From Candidatus Kapaibacterium sp. (GTDB lineage: Bacteria; Bacteroidota; Ignavibacteria; Kapaibacteriales; Kapaibacteriaceae): a stretch of 33,006 nt of DNA. Location of the stretch: assembly GCA_018882585.1 (NCBI GenBank), contig VFFB01000018.1:1-33006 (forward strand). The letters run 5' to 3'. The notes beneath the pieces are model-generated. The model was not told where the DNA came from and ran no database searches. It worked only from the letters and a program-made list of their open reading frames with translations. Positions 19,266 to 26,770 of the stretch are shown here, one piece after another (within the stretch, counting starts at the first letter, position 1; every line of letters starts with the position of its first letter). The position numbers and the translations under genes were made by a program.

Positions 19266-20729
19266 TTACGGCGCGTCGGGCAGATACGGTTTGACCATGA
19301 TGACCTGTTCGCGCTCGACGACGACGGCGCCGACGTTGGCACCCTTTGGCTTGCGCACGTACTTGCGCTGCGTGTAGATGACGGGCGTGTACGAGGCGTT
19401 ACGTGCTTGCGAGTAGTAGGCGGCGATGGCGGCAGCGCGTTCCAGAACGTCCTTTGGTGGACGCTCATTCCCGCCGCCACGAAGAAGGGCATGCGATCCG
19501 CTCACGCCCCGGGCATGCAGCCACCAGTCGTTCTGCTTGGCAAAGCGCATCGTGAGTTCGTCGTTGTTCGCTGCATTGCGCCCTACATACAGCGTGTACG
19601 TGTCGTTCAGAACAAATGTGCGATAGACGGTCGTGCCGTCGTCCTGTGCCCGGTCGTGCATGTAGCGCTCGTTCAAGCGTTGAAGGATCTGCTCGTCGGC
19701 CGTCTGTTCGGCCGTCGCAAGGTCTGTCCGTAGTTCAGACAGCCGCTGCTCGAACACGGGAATGCGCCGGTGACGCTCGGCAGCGGCCTGGACGGATTGT
19801 TTGGCCTTGGCGTAGTACGACGTAGCATTCTCGATCAGCGACCTCGTCGGGTCGATGCTGATCGTGACCATACTGCCATCTACATCCTGCACCGTGATAC
19901 GGTCACCCTTGATGTGCACATCCGTTCCCTGCGCCATCAGCAGGTTGCCGTAGTGTCGGTACATCGACGTGCGGTCGACGTTGGCCACGTCGCTCTGCAT
20001 GCCACGCAGTGACCTCTCCGTGCGTGCGATCCGCCGGCGCAGTTCCGTCAGCAACTGCGTTCGCATCGATTTCAGACGTGCCGTGGTCCGACGAATGCCC
20101 ACCGTGCGACGCAATGCCGCATTGATATCATCGTACTGCTCCAGAACATCCCATCCGTGCAAGGGCAGCAGCGAGAACACCACGTCATCGCCACGCCGAA
20201 GCACATAGTACGTCGTGCTCTCTCTGCAGGCCGCCTCAACATCCGACACATGGTCACGCTCGGCCTCGTACAGATTGCCAAGGGGCGGCGTACCGGCCGC
20301 GGCAACGGCGAAGGTTGTGCCGATGAGCTGCTTGGCATTGGTAAGGGCATCGACGATGATGCCATCGCGGGTCACGACGATGTTGCCGTGGCCCGAGCCA
20401 AAGAACAGTGCATGCATGACGAATGTGTCGAACCAGAACGAAACGATGCGGTCGTCGGCATGCTTCGTCACGTGCGCACACTGCATGCCGCACAGCATGT
20501 CGAACCTGTCGAGCGTGTTGCTGCGGGCGCGGCGGATATTCGTCCGCTCAAGGATGGTGCCGTAGGTTGGGTCGACGCTTACGGTGATCACGATCTCTGC
20601 ACCGTCCTTGAGGAAGCACAACGTCAGAACGTGCTTCTCCTGCGAGAATGCCTCGAGTAGTTGCGCGCCGGCAAGCCGGCGATGCAAGGCGTGGGCAAGA
20701 TGCTCCAGCGTCAGGTAATGGCGGATCAC
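19266..20729 (-). CDS. rqcH: RqcH/NFACT-family ribosome quality control protein
   Basis: In bacteria RqcH (NEMF/Rqc2 homologue) binds stalled 50S subunits and adds C-terminal alanine tails. GTG 20729 is the chosen start (487 residues): it overlaps the upstream TGA as GTGA, and the protein then begins VIRHYLTLEHLAHALHRRLAGAQL, where the NFACT-N domain begins. The track of open frame further upstream is antisense-like overlap with the previous gene. An ADDRIVSFWF segment matches the conserved Asp-Arg region of NFACT-N. The middle has two helical coiled-coil stretches. The C-terminal NFACT-R domain is clear: YTLYVGRNAANNDELTMRFA, NDWWLHARGVSGSHALLRG, then VRKPKGANVGAVV. Annotated in older schemes as a fibronectin-binding protein. 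Last gene of a six-gene minus-strand run. Confidence 0.9.
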   Translation of the reverse strand: MIRHYLTLEHLAHALHRRLAGAQLLEAFSQEKHVLTLCFLKDGAEIVITVSVDPTYGTILERTNIRRARSNTLDRFDMLCGMQCAHVTKHADDRIVSFWFDTFVMHALFFGSGHGNIVVTRDGIIVDALTNAKQLIGTTFAVAAAGTPPLGNLYEAERDHVSDVEAACRESTTYYVLRRGDDVVFSLLPLHGWDVLEQYDDINAALRRTVGIRRTTARLKSMRTQLLTELRRRIARTERSLRGMQSDVANVDRTSMYRHYGNLLMAQGTDVHIKGDRITVQDVDGSMVTISIDPTRSLIENATSYYAKAKQSVQAAAERHRRIPVFEQRLSELRTDLATAEQTADEQILQRLNERYMHDRAQDDGTTVYRTFVLNDTYTLYVGRNAANNDELTMRFAKQNDWWLHARGVSGSHALLRGGGNERPPKDVLERAAAIAAYYSQARNASYTPVIYTQRKYVRKPKGANVGAVVVEREQVIMVKPYLPDAP

Positions 20730-23536
20730 GGCGTCGGCTCGGACTTCCGTGTACGTCGCGACGCCGCGGAGCGGCGTCTTTCGCCTGTTCCCGCTGCAAG
20801 CTGCCGCTGCCAGAAGGCCGGCATTGAGGGTAGCAACCGCTCCATGGAACTGCGCTGCCATGCCGATGCGCTGCGATACCACGACGTGATGGCCTTGACG
20901 TCGGCCTTTGATGTGTCGGCCGCGGCAAGCAGGCGCAGTCCGCTTGTGATGATGCGTCGGTCGAGGCGGCCGCGCCACCAGCTTACAAGGTCGGACGCCT
21001 TGCGGCGGCTGCCGCGGTTCAGTCCCTCGATGGCCGCAAATCGTACCATCTGATCATCGTCGAGCAATGCCTCGCGCAGTAGTGCGAACGCCGGTGCACC
21101 TCCAAGCGAACCCACGGCAAAGGCACTGCGTGCGCGTACGTAGGCATGGGTATCACGAAGGGCCTCGACAAAGAACGGCAGGGCCGAGGCGTTGCCGATC
21201 TCCTGCAGGGCATGAATGGCGTTGCGACGCTGCTGCCAGCGACTGCCGGTGGTCAGGGCTCCGATGGCCGGGATCAGCACCGTGTCCATGACCTTGCCCG
21301 CAAGCGTGAGTACGGTGCTCTGCGTCACGGTAGACTTGCTGGACATGCTGTCGCTCAGGAGTTGTCGCACGGCAGTGGGCGAGGCTGCATAGATCTGCGG
21401 GATCACCTCTTCAAGGGCAAGACGCTCACGTGGCATCTGCGTGCCAAGGTAGGCCGCAAGACCCGGCAGTGCCGACGCCCCCATGGCAGCGAGCTTTGTT
21501 CGGGCCGGTTTGACGTTCGACTGGTATCGCAGTGGTGCAGCAGATGCCTGGACCATCAGACTGTCGACGCTGGAGCGAAGAGGCTCCGACACGGTCGTCG
21601 GCGCAGTGGTCTGCGCAGGCGTTTCGCCAGCAGCTGTCGCCGTAAGCTCGAGATCGGCGAAGACGCCATAGGTTGATTTCAGACTGACCGATGCATTGCG
21701 CGTCGTGCTTCCGTACGTGTCTGTACCTGCTGCATCCACGAACAGACCGATCATGCCGTATCCGCGTCGGTAGTCCGAAAAGCCCATGGTGTTTTGTGTG
21801 TTCGACGCAACGTAGGCGTCGTTGCCTGCGGCGTCGACCAAGATGCTGACGGCATTGGCATTGCCGCCGCCAAGCGAGAGCGACTCGCATGTATAGCTGT
21901 CGTTGCCGGCTTCGTCGATCAGCGTTCCCGTGGCAACGTCGTGTCCGCAGCCCTGGCTGACACCGTGCGACACGTAGACGTCATCACCGGCACGGTCTCG
22001 CAGTGCCCCCCAGGCAAAATGGACACCGGAGCCCTGGGCGTACTGATAGGCCTGATAGCGGTCTTCGCCGTCATCGTCGATCAACGCACCAAGGCCATAC
22101 CAATACGCCGTGCCCTGACCGTAGATGTCGGTCGAGTACTGATCGTTACCGCCATGGTCCAGCAATAGTCCGATACCGCCCGAGGCGATCGGGCGTATGC
22201 CAAGGGCTGCGCCCTGCGTAAAGGTGACGTGATGCGCCTCGTACCGCAGCACATCCACGTAGGGGCTGATGGCCAGGTAGGTGTCATTGCCGGAGCGATC
22301 CGACAGGATGCCTACGCCCCGCGTGCCACCGAATCCTTGTGCCTGCGCATGCGACCGATACAGGTCAAAGCCGCCGTCGTCAAGCAGCAGGCCAAGACCA
22401 AAGATGCCACAGCCCTGCGTGTTTTGTCCACCAAGGTAGGAGTCATTACCGGCAAGGTCATGCACGATGCCCACACCAAAGATGCCGCAGCCCAGCGACT
22501 GATCGTCGGCTCTGTAGGTGTCGTTACCGTTACGGTCGATCACGATGCCGATGCCGCCAAGGCCCGAGCCAAGATCATAGTCCGAGGCCAGATAGGCATC
22601 GTCGCCATCAAAGTCGACGATGCAGCGCACACCATACGCAAGTGCTGTGTCCTTTTCCGTATCGGATAGCTGATATGTGTCGTTCCCACCGATGTCGACG
22701 ATCAGCAGGAAGGTGCCCGTATACGTATCGTTACCGCTGCCGCCAAGTGCCACGCGTCCTGCAGGTGTATGCAGGATAACAGTCTTGACGCTGTCACGCA
22801 GGACATCGCTTGCACGATCAAACTGTGCAACGTACTCCAGCAGCTCCTGATACAGCGACCATCCATGTTGGTAAACCGACGTCATCGAACGCGGGTTTGC
22901 CTTGTTCATGAAGGCTCGCGTTCGCTCTTGCGACCGCACCTCGTCGTCGTGAAGCTGCCAGAGTGAAGCCGTTTCCGACTCGGTGCTGTTCATCCACAGT
23001 GAATCACACATGTCTACCAGCAGCCGCTGCGAAAGGAATCCCGTGCGTGCCGCCTTTGTCGAGTCGGCGGCAATCAGACAGGCAGCGATGTAGCGCTTCA
23101 GGAAGGTAGCTCCAATGAAGCCTGCAGCGCGCTCGGGATCTGTACCCAGCCGTCCGGCAAGTTCATTCGCCGTCATCGTCAGCTCGTAGCGGTGACGCCG
23201 GAACTCGCCCAGCCCCATCCGCGACATGCTCCATGCGACAATGCTGTCCATGGCATCGGACTTGCGACCGGCTGCATGACCTCGTATCGATTCAAGTTCA
23301 TCAAAGGGGCGAAGCGGGTCCGAAAACGAGATGTCGTGCACGGGCAGTCGATGCACGTCCGCGGGCAACAGGTCCGGCGGCATGGCCAGATCCTGTCGGC
23401 TCATCCCAAGGGCGAACAGCGCGGAATCAACGGCCCGCACGGCCACGGTAGGCCACGACCACTGTGCGGTGGCCGTTCCAAGCGACAGAAGCGTTGCAAC
23501 GGCAAGAACGACGGGAACGCGGATATGTGGGTGCAT
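20726..23536 (-). CDS. Secreted GND-x-Tyr repeat protein with C-terminal HEAT repeats
   Basis: 936 residues; I do not recognise a characterised homologue. A signal peptide (about residues 1-25, ending TATAQ) sends it across the inner membrane. Residues about 26-260 are helical and of unknown fold. Residues about 264-612 hold 13 copies of a motif DxxGNDxY (variants GDDAY, GFDLY, GEDRY, GTDTY), spaced roughly 22-45 residues and mostly near 30, with linking QGxGxxGxGxLxD strands; this looks like a beta-solenoid with possible metal-binding acidic turns. Residues about 660-880 are HEAT-like helical repeats (RRNAIHALQEIGNASALPFF, VRARSAFAVGSLGGAPAFA, VRFAAIEGLNRGS). A basic tail closes the protein. 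It begins 5 nt after the TPR gene and overlaps rqcH, so the three are cotranscribed. Role unknown; surface scaffold or binding protein is a guess. Confidence 0.85.
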   Translation of the reverse strand: MHPHIRVPVVLAVATLLSLGTATAQWSWPTVAVRAVDSALFALGMSRQDLAMPPDLLPADVHRLPVHDISFSDPLRPFDELESIRGHAAGRKSDAMDSIVAWSMSRMGLGEFRRHRYELTMTANELAGRLGTDPERAAGFIGATFLKRYIAACLIAADSTKAARTGFLSQRLLVDMCDSLWMNSTESETASLWQLHDDEVRSQERTRAFMNKANPRSMTSVYQHGWSLYQELLEYVAQFDRASDVLRDSVKTVILHTPAGRVALGGSGNDTYTGTFLLIVDIGGNDTYQLSDTEKDTALAYGVRCIVDFDGDDAYLASDYDLGSGLGGIGIVIDRNGNDTYRADDQSLGCGIFGVGIVHDLAGNDSYLGGQNTQGCGIFGLGLLLDDGGFDLYRSHAQAQGFGGTRGVGILSDRSGNDTYLAISPYVDVLRYEAHHVTFTQGAALGIRPIASGGIGLLLDHGGNDQYSTDIYGQGTAYWYGLGALIDDDGEDRYQAYQYAQGSGVHFAWGALRDRAGDDVYVSHGVSQGCGHDVATGTLIDEAGNDSYTCESLSLGGGNANAVSILVDAAGNDAYVASNTQNTMGFSDYRRGYGMIGLFVDAAGTDTYGSTTRNASVSLKSTYGVFADLELTATAAGETPAQTTAPTTVSEPLRSSVDSLMVQASAAPLRYQSNVKPARTKLAAMGASALPGLAAYLGTQMPRERLALEEVIPQIYAASPTAVRQLLSDSMSSKSTVTQSTVLTLAGKVMDTVLIPAIGALTTGSRWQQRRNAIHALQEIGNASALPFFVEALRDTHAYVRARSAFAVGSLGGAPAFALLREALLDDDQMVRFAAIEGLNRGSRRKASDLVSWWRGRLDRRIITSGLRLLAAADTSKADVKAITSWYRSASAWQRSSMERLLPSMPAFWQRQLAAGTGERRRSAASRRTRKSEPTP
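21700..22745 (-). repeat. Region encoding about 13 GND-x-Tyr protein repeats
   Basis: Degenerate at DNA level but clear in protein: D-x-x-G-N-D-x-Y recurs at a period near 30 residues (about 90 bp). The divergence between copies shows an old expansion. Boundaries are approximate. Confidence 0.75.
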
Positions 23537-23541
23537 GGGGG

Positions 23542-24861
23542 TTACTTCATCATCGTGCGAAGTTCATCGGCAAGAGCGGGGCTCGACGTATGCAACTGTT
23601 CGATGATAGCCATCGCTTCCTGCTTGCGACCAGTGCGGATGTAGACGCGGCCGATACCTGCCGTGATGTTATCGTCGGTGCTGAATCGCTCACGTTGTGA
23701 CATCAGATAGGCCAGGCATTCATCGAGTCGCATTGCCGCAAAGAGCGTATTGGCAAGTTCGGTGTGCAGCATGGCGACGGTATCGTCGAGTGCGATGGCC
23801 TGACGATGGGCCGCGAGGGCATCGTCGACGCGGCCCTGAGACCGGTACGAGATGCCGATGGCATTGTATGCACGCGGAGCAAGAATGCTGTTCATGACCG
23901 CACAGCGCCGAAGGGCGACGACGGCATCCTCTGAAAACCCGGCATGATCAAGGGCCAACCCCAGATTGAAGTAGGCTTCGCTGAAGTTCGGCCGGAGTTT
24001 TATGGCCTGGCGAAGCGCCTTGATGGCCGAGTCGGATTTGCCCGCAAGATCGAGTGCCGAGCCAAAATTGTACCAGCCGTCGGCATCGTCGGGATATCGT
24101 GCGACGTACGGACGCATGACGTCGACTGCCTCGCGATGCCGGCTCCGGGCGCCCAGTGCTGCGGCGAGTGTCTTGTATGTCGCTGCGCTGCCAGGATCGG
24201 CGGCAAGTGCGGCGCGATACCGATCGATCGCTTCATCCCATTGTTGCAGGTCCTGGTGCACGTCGCCCAGCGTCGTCAGCAGGCGCGCATCATTCGGTCG
24301 TTGGTCCACGGCCTGCGCATACAAGTCGGCCGCTTCCTGCAGTCTGCCAATTGTGCGGTAGCACATGGCAAGCATGACGATGACCTGTACGTCGCCAGGT
24401 CGACGAAAGGCCTGATCTTCGAGAGGGTCGATCGCTTCCTCGAAACGCTTCAGCGTCATTAGTGTCTGCGCAAGGCGCATTGCGAACTCTGGCCGCGATG
24501 GAAAACGTCGGCGCGCCTCGTCAAGCACCAGCAACGCAGAGTCGTGCTCGTTCATGCGCAGCAGCGACTCGGCGTGTACGGACCATGCCTGGGGGATGTC
24601 CGGCTGTTGTGCCCGTGCCGTGGCGCTTGCTGATCGCGCTTCGGGATAGCGTTGCAATTCGATGAAGGCCACGCTGCGCGCCAGCAGCACTTGGATGTCG
24701 CGGGGCTGGCGCTTGACAAGAGGGTCGGTGATGGCAATGACGTCGCGCCAGCGACGCTCGGCCGCCGCCTTGGCGGCGCGCTCCATCGGCGTTGGTTGCT
24801 GGGCAAGAACCGTTGTGACGGCGAGGAACAACCAGATGATGATCCAGATTCGGCGTTGCAT
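23542..24861 (-). CDS. Secreted/periplasmic TPR-repeat protein
   Basis: 439 residues. An N-terminal signal peptide (IWIIIWLFLAVTTVLAQ) is followed almost wholly by tetratricopeptide repeats, about ten of them, with the usual pattern W/L-G-Y-A-F-A-P: for example TYKTLAAALGARSRHREAVD, WYNFGSALDLAGKSDSAIKA, AYFNLGLALDHAGFSEDAVV and AYNAIGISYRSQGRVDDALA. TPR solenoids hold protein partners. It lies between ribD (8 nt gap) and the GND-repeat gene (5 nt gap), and both this protein and that one carry export signals, so they may work together at the cell envelope. No enzymatic domain is visible. Confidence 0.9.
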   Translation of the reverse strand: MQRRIWIIIWLFLAVTTVLAQQPTPMERAAKAAAERRWRDVIAITDPLVKRQPRDIQVLLARSVAFIELQRYPEARSASATARAQQPDIPQAWSVHAESLLRMNEHDSALLVLDEARRRFPSRPEFAMRLAQTLMTLKRFEEAIDPLEDQAFRRPGDVQVIVMLAMCYRTIGRLQEAADLYAQAVDQRPNDARLLTTLGDVHQDLQQWDEAIDRYRAALAADPGSAATYKTLAAALGARSRHREAVDVMRPYVARYPDDADGWYNFGSALDLAGKSDSAIKALRQAIKLRPNFSEAYFNLGLALDHAGFSEDAVVALRRCAVMNSILAPRAYNAIGISYRSQGRVDDALAAHRQAIALDDTVAMLHTELANTLFAAMRLDECLAYLMSQRERFSTDDNITAGIGRVYIRTGRKQEAMAIIEQLHTSSPALADELRTMMK

Positions 24862-24869
24862 TGGCAGGT

Positions 24870-25961
24870 TCAGGGCATGACGGGCAGCAGTGTCGTGTGA
24901 ACGTCTCCGTCCACATAATCAAGCGAATGTACGACCCACGTCGATGCCGTCGACGGATGGTCTGGCCGAAGCATGTTCCACCGAAGTCCGTCGCCCAGCA
25001 GGATCGGAGCCGTGTGCAGACGCAGTTCGTGGATGGCGTTGTTAGCCAGCAGCGACGTCAGGACGGTCGGGCCGGCCTCGACAAGGAGCATCGTGACAGA
25101 GAACTGCGTGGCACAGACGTCAAGTGCATCGGCGATGCTGAGTCGTCCGTTGACGCTTGGTATGCCAATGACGCTGCAGCCACGATCGCGCAGTGCCTGG
25201 GCGGCATCGCTGTCGTTGACGTCGGCAGCGCATAGGATCACAACGGGGGACACGGCCGTCGAAGCGACAAGTGCACCGTCGATCGGAGTACGCAACTGCG
25301 TGTCAAGAACGATGCGCATCGGCGAACGACCATCGACATGGCGAACGGTGAACAGCGGATCGTCGGCAAGCACCGTACCTACGCCTGTGAGCACGGCGTC
25401 GACTTCGCCGCGCAGGGCATGCACCACGTGGCGGCTGGCCTGCGAGGTGATCCATTTCGAGGCCCCGTTCCACGTGGCCATGCAACCGTCGAGCGATTGG
25501 CCGATCTTGGCCATCACCCATGGTCTGCGATGCGTCATCCAGTGGGCAAAGCCTCGGTTCAACCACAGGCATTCGTGGGCAAGCACATCGGTGACGACGC
25601 TGATGCCTGCCTCTCGAAGTGCTGCAATGCCCCTTCCCGACACCATGGGATTCGGGTCGGACATTCCAACAACAACATTGCGAATGCCCGAGGCGATGAT
25701 GGCATTGGTGCAGGGGGGCGTCTTGCCCTGATGGGCACATGGCTCCAGCGTGACGTACATCGTTGCATCGGCAGGGACGGTGTCGAGACCGGCAAGGGCA
25801 GCCACCTCGGCATGGGGTCCACCGAACACTGCATGCCATCCTTCGGCAATGATGTGATCATTGTGAACGATCACGCATCCTACCCGAGGGTTCGGTGCGA
25901 CGTGTCCGGTGCCGCGAGATGCCAGCTCCAGGGCACGACGCATGTACGGTTCGTGATTCAT
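24870..25961 (-). CDS. ribD: Bifunctional riboflavin biosynthesis deaminase/reductase
   Basis: Deaminates and then reduces the pyrimidine intermediate of riboflavin synthesis in the cytoplasm. ATG 25961 is chosen (363 residues) because it overlaps the upstream lipoprotein stop as ATGA; a start 15 nt earlier is possible. The deaminase domain has the zinc-binding HAE (His50, Glu52) in GGPHAEVAAL, and Cys75 and Cys84 in EPCAHQGKTPPC. The reductase domain follows (PWVMAKIGQSLDGCMA, then WITSQASRHVVHALR and DAVLTGVGTVLADDPLFTVR). The rest of the rib pathway is not in the window and no FMN riboswitch is seen; the gene is inside an operon led by a purine nucleoside phosphorylase. Confidence 0.96.
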   Translation of the reverse strand: MNHEPYMRRALELASRGTGHVAPNPRVGCVIVHNDHIIAEGWHAVFGGPHAEVAALAGLDTVPADATMYVTLEPCAHQGKTPPCTNAIIASGIRNVVVGMSDPNPMVSGRGIAALREAGISVVTDVLAHECLWLNRGFAHWMTHRRPWVMAKIGQSLDGCMATWNGASKWITSQASRHVVHALRGEVDAVLTGVGTVLADDPLFTVRHVDGRSPMRIVLDTQLRTPIDGALVASTAVSPVVILCAADVNDSDAAQALRDRGCSVIGIPSVNGRLSIADALDVCATQFSVTMLLVEAGPTVLTSLLANNAIHELRLHTAPILLGDGLRWNMLRPDHPSTASTWVVHSLDYVDGDVHTTLLPVMP

Positions 25962-26770
25962 GGTTGCGGTGGCCATTGCACGTCCAATGTCGAACGATAG
26001 GGGAACGGAATGGCCGGAATCAGGATCTCTGCGGTGTACGTGCCCTTAGGGACCGTCGTGCCGGACGAGGTCTGGCCGTTCCAGATGCGCGACACGGTTG
26101 CGACGTCGCCACGCTCCTGCGGTTGGACGGATGTGATCATGGTCAGGAAGGCCATGCCGCTGCCTGAATTCCACACCTCGGTACCCGAGGCATTGAACAC
26201 GGTCACGCGCACATCTTCCGAGCTGGGCAGGTATTCCTGCTCCGGAAGCCATACGCGCTGCACGTGGGCACCTAGTTCGATCCCGCCATCATCCGTGACG
26301 TGTTGAAAGGGGCTCAGTTCGACCGCAGAGGGATCGATCATGGTGACGGCCTGTGGAAAGACGACGTGGTCCGACGCCGTAACAACCGAGACGTCCACCC
26401 ACGGACTGGCGAACTCGGTAGCAGACGCAACAGATATGATCGCTTCGCCGATCAACGTCACTGCCGAACTGTCGGACGGTACTGCCTTGCGTGTCAGCTG
26501 AAAGTCGACCGTATCGCTGTAGAAGCCTTGAGCGGCGCCGACGGCGGCATAGACCGTTCGGATGACAGGATCGGACGTACGAAGGGTTGGCAAGGTGGCA
26601 AACGACAGTCGCAGGGTCGTGTCAGACAGACGCATGCCCCGAACGGCAAACACGGGCTCGCCAAGGCGGATGCCACGAACGTCATAGGTACTCGAAAAAC
26701 CGCGGTGACAGCCGCCGGCCAGGAGGCCTGCCTGCAGCACCACGAGCAGGATAAGCATGGTGCGATTCAT
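25958..26770 (-). CDS. Putative lipoprotein with FlgD-like Ig fold
   Basis: 270 residues of unknown function. Signal peptide with a lipobox ending LLAGGC, lipid-modified Cys21 expected, so it should be anchored to a membrane after LspA cleavage. The C-terminal 70 residues contain VSRIWNGQTSSGTTVPKGTY, matching the W-x-G-x(4-6)-G-x-x-V-x-x-G-x-Y pattern of FlgD-like Ig domains often found in secreted proteins of this group. The middle is beta-rich. The start overlaps the phosphorylase stop as ATGA and the stop overlaps ribD as ATGA, so translation is coupled. Lipoprotein prediction is firm; any role is open. Confidence 0.8.
   Translation of the reverse strand: MNRTMLILLVVLQAGLLAGGCHRGFSSTYDVRGIRLGEPVFAVRGMRLSDTTLRLSFATLPTLRTSDPVIRTVYAAVGAAQGFYSDTVDFQLTRKAVPSDSSAVTLIGEAIISVASATEFASPWVDVSVVTASDHVVFPQAVTMIDPSAVELSPFQHVTDDGGIELGAHVQRVWLPEQEYLPSSEDVRVTVFNASGTEVWNSGSGMAFLTMITSVQPQERGDVATVSRIWNGQTSSGTTVPKGTYTAEILIPAIPFPYRSTLDVQWPPQP

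Follow-up and report, generated by a model that had tools for sequence, protein, structure and literature searches.

A putative calcium-laddered beta-solenoid of fixed length, with a candidate functional site, in exported bacterial proteins

What is the large protein encoded on the reverse strand of the window (the whole 33,006-nucleotide stretch of DNA analysed here), and what might a long series of Asp- and Tyr-bearing repeats do for it in the cell envelope? The original prediction described an exported protein in which about 13 GND-x-Tyr repeats, with a period near 30 residues, form a beta-solenoid whose turns align their Asp/Asn residues and stack their Tyr residues in a ladder. It set these repeats between an N-terminal helical domain and C-terminal HEAT repeats, held that they were not the nine-residue RTX repeat, called the architecture one that it could not name, and proposed structure prediction and a profile search as checks. 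The features that we assign to the locus are collected in Table 1.

Table 1. Features of the solenoid locus, in window coordinates.
Feature	Coordinates	Strand	Residues (aa)	Basis or remark
Upstream TPR protein	23542..24861	(-)		Carries a signal peptide of its own; 5 bases upstream of the start codon of the solenoid gene
Exported solenoid-HEAT protein ORF	20726..23536	(-)		Uninterrupted, 936 codons plus stop; full-length homologs in most relatives
Sec signal peptide	23465..23536	(-)	1-24	Sequence, crude signal-peptide check, alignment
Helical N-domain	22787..23449	(-)	~30-250	AlphaFold2
Beta-solenoid domain	21641..22780	(-)	253-632	12 coils, one GGSGND turn ahead
Turn 0, GGSGNDTY	22721..22744	(-)	265-272	Equals the canonical RTX Ca2+ turn GGxGxDxU
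Insertion between coils 6 and 7	22181..22276	(-)	~421-452	In all homologs; model confidence low at aa 425-438
Candidate functional patch	21938..22195	(-)	R448, Y478, W479, H506, H532, D533	Conservation, 65 non-redundant homologs
C-terminal helical HEAT domain	20789..21568	(-)	657-916	Pfam HEAT_2 and AlphaFold2
Basic C-terminal tail	20729..20782	(-)	919-936

The protein begins with a signal peptide that reads MHPHIRVPVVLAVATLLSLGTATA-QW in a crude sequence check, in agreement with the claim of export; cleavage is likely before Gln25, and the ..AQ ending recurs in the alignment of many orthologs. By a crude test, 47 of 64 homologs have a signal-peptide-like segment ahead of the core; among the neighbouring proteins used as controls, 12 of 73 do. 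The full-length AlphaFold2 model (12-14 sequences in the alignment) consists of helices at aa 30-250, where a helical N-terminal domain had been expected, a solenoid at aa 253-628 and helices at aa 657-916. The C-terminal HEAT repeats were confirmed by a HEAT_2 match at aa 761-839 (53.1 bits against a cut-off of 27.7, E=3.9e-14); HEAT gave the only Pfam matches above cut-off in the whole protein, and this domain also matches PDB sequences.

The G-x-D-x-Y motif occurs 13 times from aa 268 to aa 604, as often as originally estimated and far more often than in shuffled versions of the protein (mean 0.27, maximum 4 in 10,000 shuffles). Their spacing is mostly 26-27 residues, which corrects the period of near 30; it is 16 residues before the first full coil, 47 across the insertion after coil 6 and 33 at the end. 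The solenoid comprises 12 coils of 26-27 residues with the turn D-x-x-G-[ND]-D-x-Y, of which the six-residue part D-x-x-G-[ND]-D occurs once per coil and has Asp at positions 1 and 6 in 88-100% of 65 non-redundant homologs at each of the 12 turns. In every group, intact homologs have about 12 D-x-x-G-x-D turns (a simple motif count gives 10-13) and one common spacing pattern, in which 20-26 additional residues separate coils 6 and 7. The solenoid is a fixed domain of about 375 aa and not a loose repeat array, with a coil number and an insertion that are fixed across three phyla. Of 16 HEAT-type orthologs, 12 have the GGxGxDx(Y/F/W) pattern of turn 0, which none of the 49 other homologs has.

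When the full-length model was compared with the PDB, the top matches were all HEAT-type and masked the solenoid, which we therefore modelled alone. The best of five models has regularly spaced strands, a pLDDT of 83.1 and a pTM of 0.85 (pLDDT 56.6-71.4 for the other four), and we regard the predicted solenoid structure as fairly secure. Each modelled coil has three strands: the first follows the turn and contains the Tyr, the second, in the middle, is short, and the third, of six residues (G-x-G-x-L-x), runs up to and ends on the first Asp of the following turn. The stacked turns and regularly placed Tyr of the original prediction are supported. The top Foldseek match for the solenoid, the Ca2+-dependent antifreeze beta-helix of Marinomonas primoryensis (3p4g), is weak (probability 0.97, E=0.16, TM 0.43/0.54) and not significant, although suggestive; a CyaA RTX block lies further down the list. 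A comparison with viral structures gave no meaningful match.

RTX rolls bind Ca2+ in a six-residue turn, GGxGxD, whose carbonyls and Asp hold the ion as a bridge between coils (PMC6891781). In region IV of MpIBP, which has 12 coils with 19 residues each, the turn is XGTGND and Ca2+ lies along a single edge (PMC6891781, PMC3492233). By analogy, a metal bound by the solenoid turns of the window protein would likely be Ca2+, because the six-residue turn has the length of the RTX turn and the RTX-like region IV of MpIBP is the best, if weak (E=0.16), fold match. The coordination would differ from that of RTX proteins, since Asp replaces the first Gly and the second Gly (position 5 of GGxGxD) is not conserved.

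Apart from ladder and Gly positions, six residues of coils 7-10 are highly conserved. Among the 65 homologs, H506 and D533 are identical in all, R448 in 64, Y478 in 62, and W479 and H532 in 53 each; R448, Y478, H506 and D533 occupy neither ladder nor structural Gly positions. W479 (coil 8), H506 (coil 9) and D533 (coil 10) share an offset of -8 relative to the turn Asp, and each directly follows the short middle strand in the AlphaFold2 model, so that these three residues should stack. Leu or Ile takes the corresponding position in coils 3-5 of the window protein. Within the solenoid, conservation is also higher in coils 6-12 (59-74% identity, against 44-62%). We infer from this conservation that the patch may be a functional site. 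One specific candidate, a Ser/Cys-His-Asp triad formed by S452, H506 and D533, was ruled out, as only about half of the homologs have Ser at residue 452, and a third have Ala.

The domain profile A2 was matched over nearly its full length in 72 of 197 sampled genomes of the window's class (~37%), 16 of 198 of its phylum, 101 of 246 sampled Planctomycetota (~41%, with up to 7 copies per genome) and 10 of 195 (~5%) of the phylum that includes the myxobacterial homolog. The best full-length relatives come from Ignavibacteria/Chlorobiota, one record being named OPB56, and identity between orthologs is 53-72% in the solenoid, 20-47% in the N-domain and 26-47% in the HEAT domain. The window's own genome holds a second solenoid gene (G000:C30, L029:4143-6179 (+)), which encodes an exported, HEAT-free protein of 679 aa; this copy and similar genes in G013, G015, G027 and G030 form a distinct subfamily.

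No Pfam or NCBIfam model scored above its curated cut-off over the solenoid or the N-domain, PDB sequences searched with the solenoid profile gave nothing below E=0.76, and neither a plasmid collection nor viral contigs held a relative of the solenoid protein; a literature search on the motif and the domain found no paper. It is best described as a family of Sec-exported, fixed-length solenoids with 26-27-residue coils that is absent from the databases and papers searched. The view that the architecture could not be named stands in that the solenoid has no Pfam or NCBIfam name, but the domain is widespread and fixed in length, with HEAT as a lineage-specific addition.

The HEAT domain follows the solenoid in the window's lineage and is lacking in relatives from other phyla. 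Among 39 mainly planctomycete and myxobacterial homologs, 16 carry a PDZ domain and two a PpiC-type isomerase, with no other Pfam domain at E<=0.001. In the homologs examined, PDZ sits on the N-terminal side, and in one the isomerase is C-terminal (the parvulin domain of the L099 homolog, to which the C-terminus of L098 is similar). HEAT-type orthologs usually end in a Lys/Arg-rich stretch such as TKKKKKKKKTMPTP, with at least six K/R in the last 20 residues in 11 of 16; it is seen in the window (20729-20782) and at the C-termini of L002, L003, L007, L013, L014 and L020, and no HEAT-free homolog has six or more K/R there. For the N-domain, a profile built from 16 proteins found 20 at E<0.01 in iteration 0 and 25 in iteration 1 (best shuffled sequence 0.051); a shuffled sequence entered at borderline level in iteration 2 and clearly from iteration 3, and we therefore confined the evidence to iterations 0-1. 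By these profiles, the N-domain appears recognisable in some, not all, myxobacterial and planctomycete homologs. We dropped the idea that it is homologous across all members, for which the profile-profile probability was 21% or less.

A gene for an exported TPR protein adjoins the solenoid gene in many orthologous loci, within a gene order common to relatives: YicC, PNP, a BsuPI/FlgD-Ig-like protein, RibD, TPR, solenoid, Rqc, arginine decarboxylase, Fur and TopA. The named loci with the window's order belong to metagenome-assembled genomes labelled Ignavibacteria or Bacteroidetes. RibD, PNP, Rqc and YicC are housekeeping genes and give no hint to the function of the solenoid in the window's lineage. 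The small protein between PNP and RibD (25958-26770 (-)) keeps its place in this order and has weak, sub-threshold FlgD-Ig and BsuPI matches. In one relative (L018:3684-7655 (+)), RibD and the solenoid protein share a single open frame of 1324 codons, either a fusion or an assembly or start-site effect. The listed Rqc/NFACT ORF in the window (19266-20978 (-)) shares 253 bases with the solenoid ORF; homologs align from about its residue 109, which probably puts the true Rqc/NFACT start near 20654. Planctomycete and myxobacterial loci have no common neighbour apart from one planctomycete cluster (L076, L077, L080, L081, L085 and L086, possibly anammox relatives), where the solenoid gene is followed by a radical SAM gene; the product of the latter is near the PA0069/Rv2578c families, below NCBIfam cut-offs.

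Taken together, we favour, with a probability of roughly 0.4, a Ca2+-laddered envelope factor for protein interaction or folding that has one specific site and protein clients, where the calcium, the functional role of the site and the clients are all deduced; the ORF, the export signal (by sequence), the fixed coil number, the conservation, the predicted solenoid and the associated modules are what the analysis shows directly. Its core would be a Ca2+-stabilised solenoid of 12 coils with three strands each, in a periplasmic or surface protein, and neighbouring D-x-x-G-[ND]-D turns would share one Ca2+ ion, by analogy with RTX proteins and MpIBP. With ions shared between turns, folding and stiffening of the solenoid would follow once Sec has exported it to a compartment rich in Ca2+, and the rigid solenoid would present a single specific site on coils 7-10 (R448, Y478, W479, H506, H532 and D533). 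The HEAT module of the window protein, the PDZ or parvulin domains of its relatives and the co-located exported TPR protein would point to protein clients, and the most likely job would be to hold, fold or assemble other envelope proteins. We prefer proteins to sugars as clients because of the PDZ, parvulin, HEAT and TPR company, which is association only. More tentative still is the extension to the whole family, in which planctomycetes, myxobacteria and Chlorobiota/Ignavibacteria relatives would possess an undescribed group of Ca2+-folded envelope chaperones or assembly factors, each with the 12-coil solenoid, an invariant Arg/Tyr/Trp/His/Asp site and interchangeable PDZ, parvulin, HEAT or TPR modules; we consider this possible but doubtful.

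The main rival concerns the same patch. Right-handed beta-helix enzymes bear active sites on successive coils, and the invariant Arg, Tyr, His and Asp, clustered in coils 7-10 in one register and distinct from ladder and Gly positions, would agree with an enzyme, secreted or at the surface (such as a polysaccharide lyase, an epimerase or a hydrolase), that uses R448, Y478, H506 and D533 as its active site, with Ca2+ and HEAT as accessories. We consider this unlikely, given that neither a Pfam or NCBIfam enzyme family nor a PDB sequence matches, and that the 39 homologs have PDZ and parvulin domains yet no fused carbohydrate-binding or other catalytic domain; the His-Asp pair could, moreover, be buried and structural.

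The remaining alternatives would do without a site or without a metal. A structural adhesin or rigid surface spacer, RTX-adhesin-like and lacking a specific site, would suit an exported, repetitive protein whose nearest (weakly matching) fold is an RTX adhesin domain, but spacer arrays vary in length, whereas here coil number and insertion are fixed in three phyla and H506 and D533 are invariant, and we judge this reading distinctly unlikely. Other solenoids owe stability to ladders of Asn and Asp with no metal involved, and the Asp/Asn/Tyr ladders of the window protein might likewise be hydrogen-bond ladders that close the coils of a metal-free solenoid, a possibility that would also fit the loss of the RTX position-5 Gly. 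Against it are the conservation of both Asp in all 12 turns, the agreement of turn length and turn 0 with the RTX Ca2+ turn, and a fold match, if a weak one (E=0.16), to a Ca2+ protein, which together make this reading improbable.

With a fixed coil number and an invariant patch, point mutations can put a specific function to the test. The domain occurs in ~40% of sampled planctomycete genomes and in over one third of those of the window's class, often in multiple copies, yet neither Pfam nor NCBIfam has a family for it and no relative has been solved; naming the solenoid family would annotate many hypothetical proteins. If calcium is confirmed, the RTX-type Ca2+ solenoid would extend from T1SS-exported repeat arrays to Sec-exported fixed domains.

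Among known systems, region IV of MpIBP/MpAFP (3p4g) is an exported right-handed beta-solenoid with a six-residue Ca2+-type turn (XGTGND) on a single edge of each coil; the window protein, likewise exported and with a similar number of coils (12-13), probably shares this arrangement, with one D-x-x-G-N-D turn per coil in its predicted solenoid. Region IV differs in its 19-residue coils (xGTGNDxuxuGGxuxGxux, against 26-27 residues with D-x-x-G-x-D-x-Y), in lacking the conserved Asp at turn position 1, in its flat Thr/Asx ice face, which is not seen in the window protein, and in belonging to a T1SS RTX adhesin, whereas the window protein has an N-terminal signal peptide; the two have no detectable sequence relation. 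In the RTX beta-roll (Pfam HemolysinCabind, GGxGxDxUx), Gly-7 and Asp-9 correspond to Gly-4 and Asp-6 of the turn here, and an exact GGxGxDxU turn occurs at aa 265, but the roll has two turns per 18 residues in place of one per 26-27. As originally held, this is not the nine-residue repeat: tandem GGxGxDxUx nonapeptides were not found in the window protein, the match at aa 265 being single, and HemolysinCabind gave no Pfam match even at E<=10. RTX proteins also carry a C-terminal T1SS signal and no N-terminal signal peptide, whereas the window protein has such a peptide and its solenoid is internal and is followed by HEAT. The C-terminal domain resembles HEAT-repeat proteins (Pfam HEAT_2; alphaRep designs in the PDB), and HEAT is one of several optional attachments in the family. 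Through the PDZ or PpiC-type domains of its relatives, the family recalls periplasmic PDZ/parvulin proteins (HtrA/CtpA-like, PpiC/SurA-like), from which it differs in having no protease domain and, in the window protein, neither PDZ nor parvulin. The window protein is thus not an RTX protein, though by its turn and fold it stands near the RTX-type Ca2+ solenoids.
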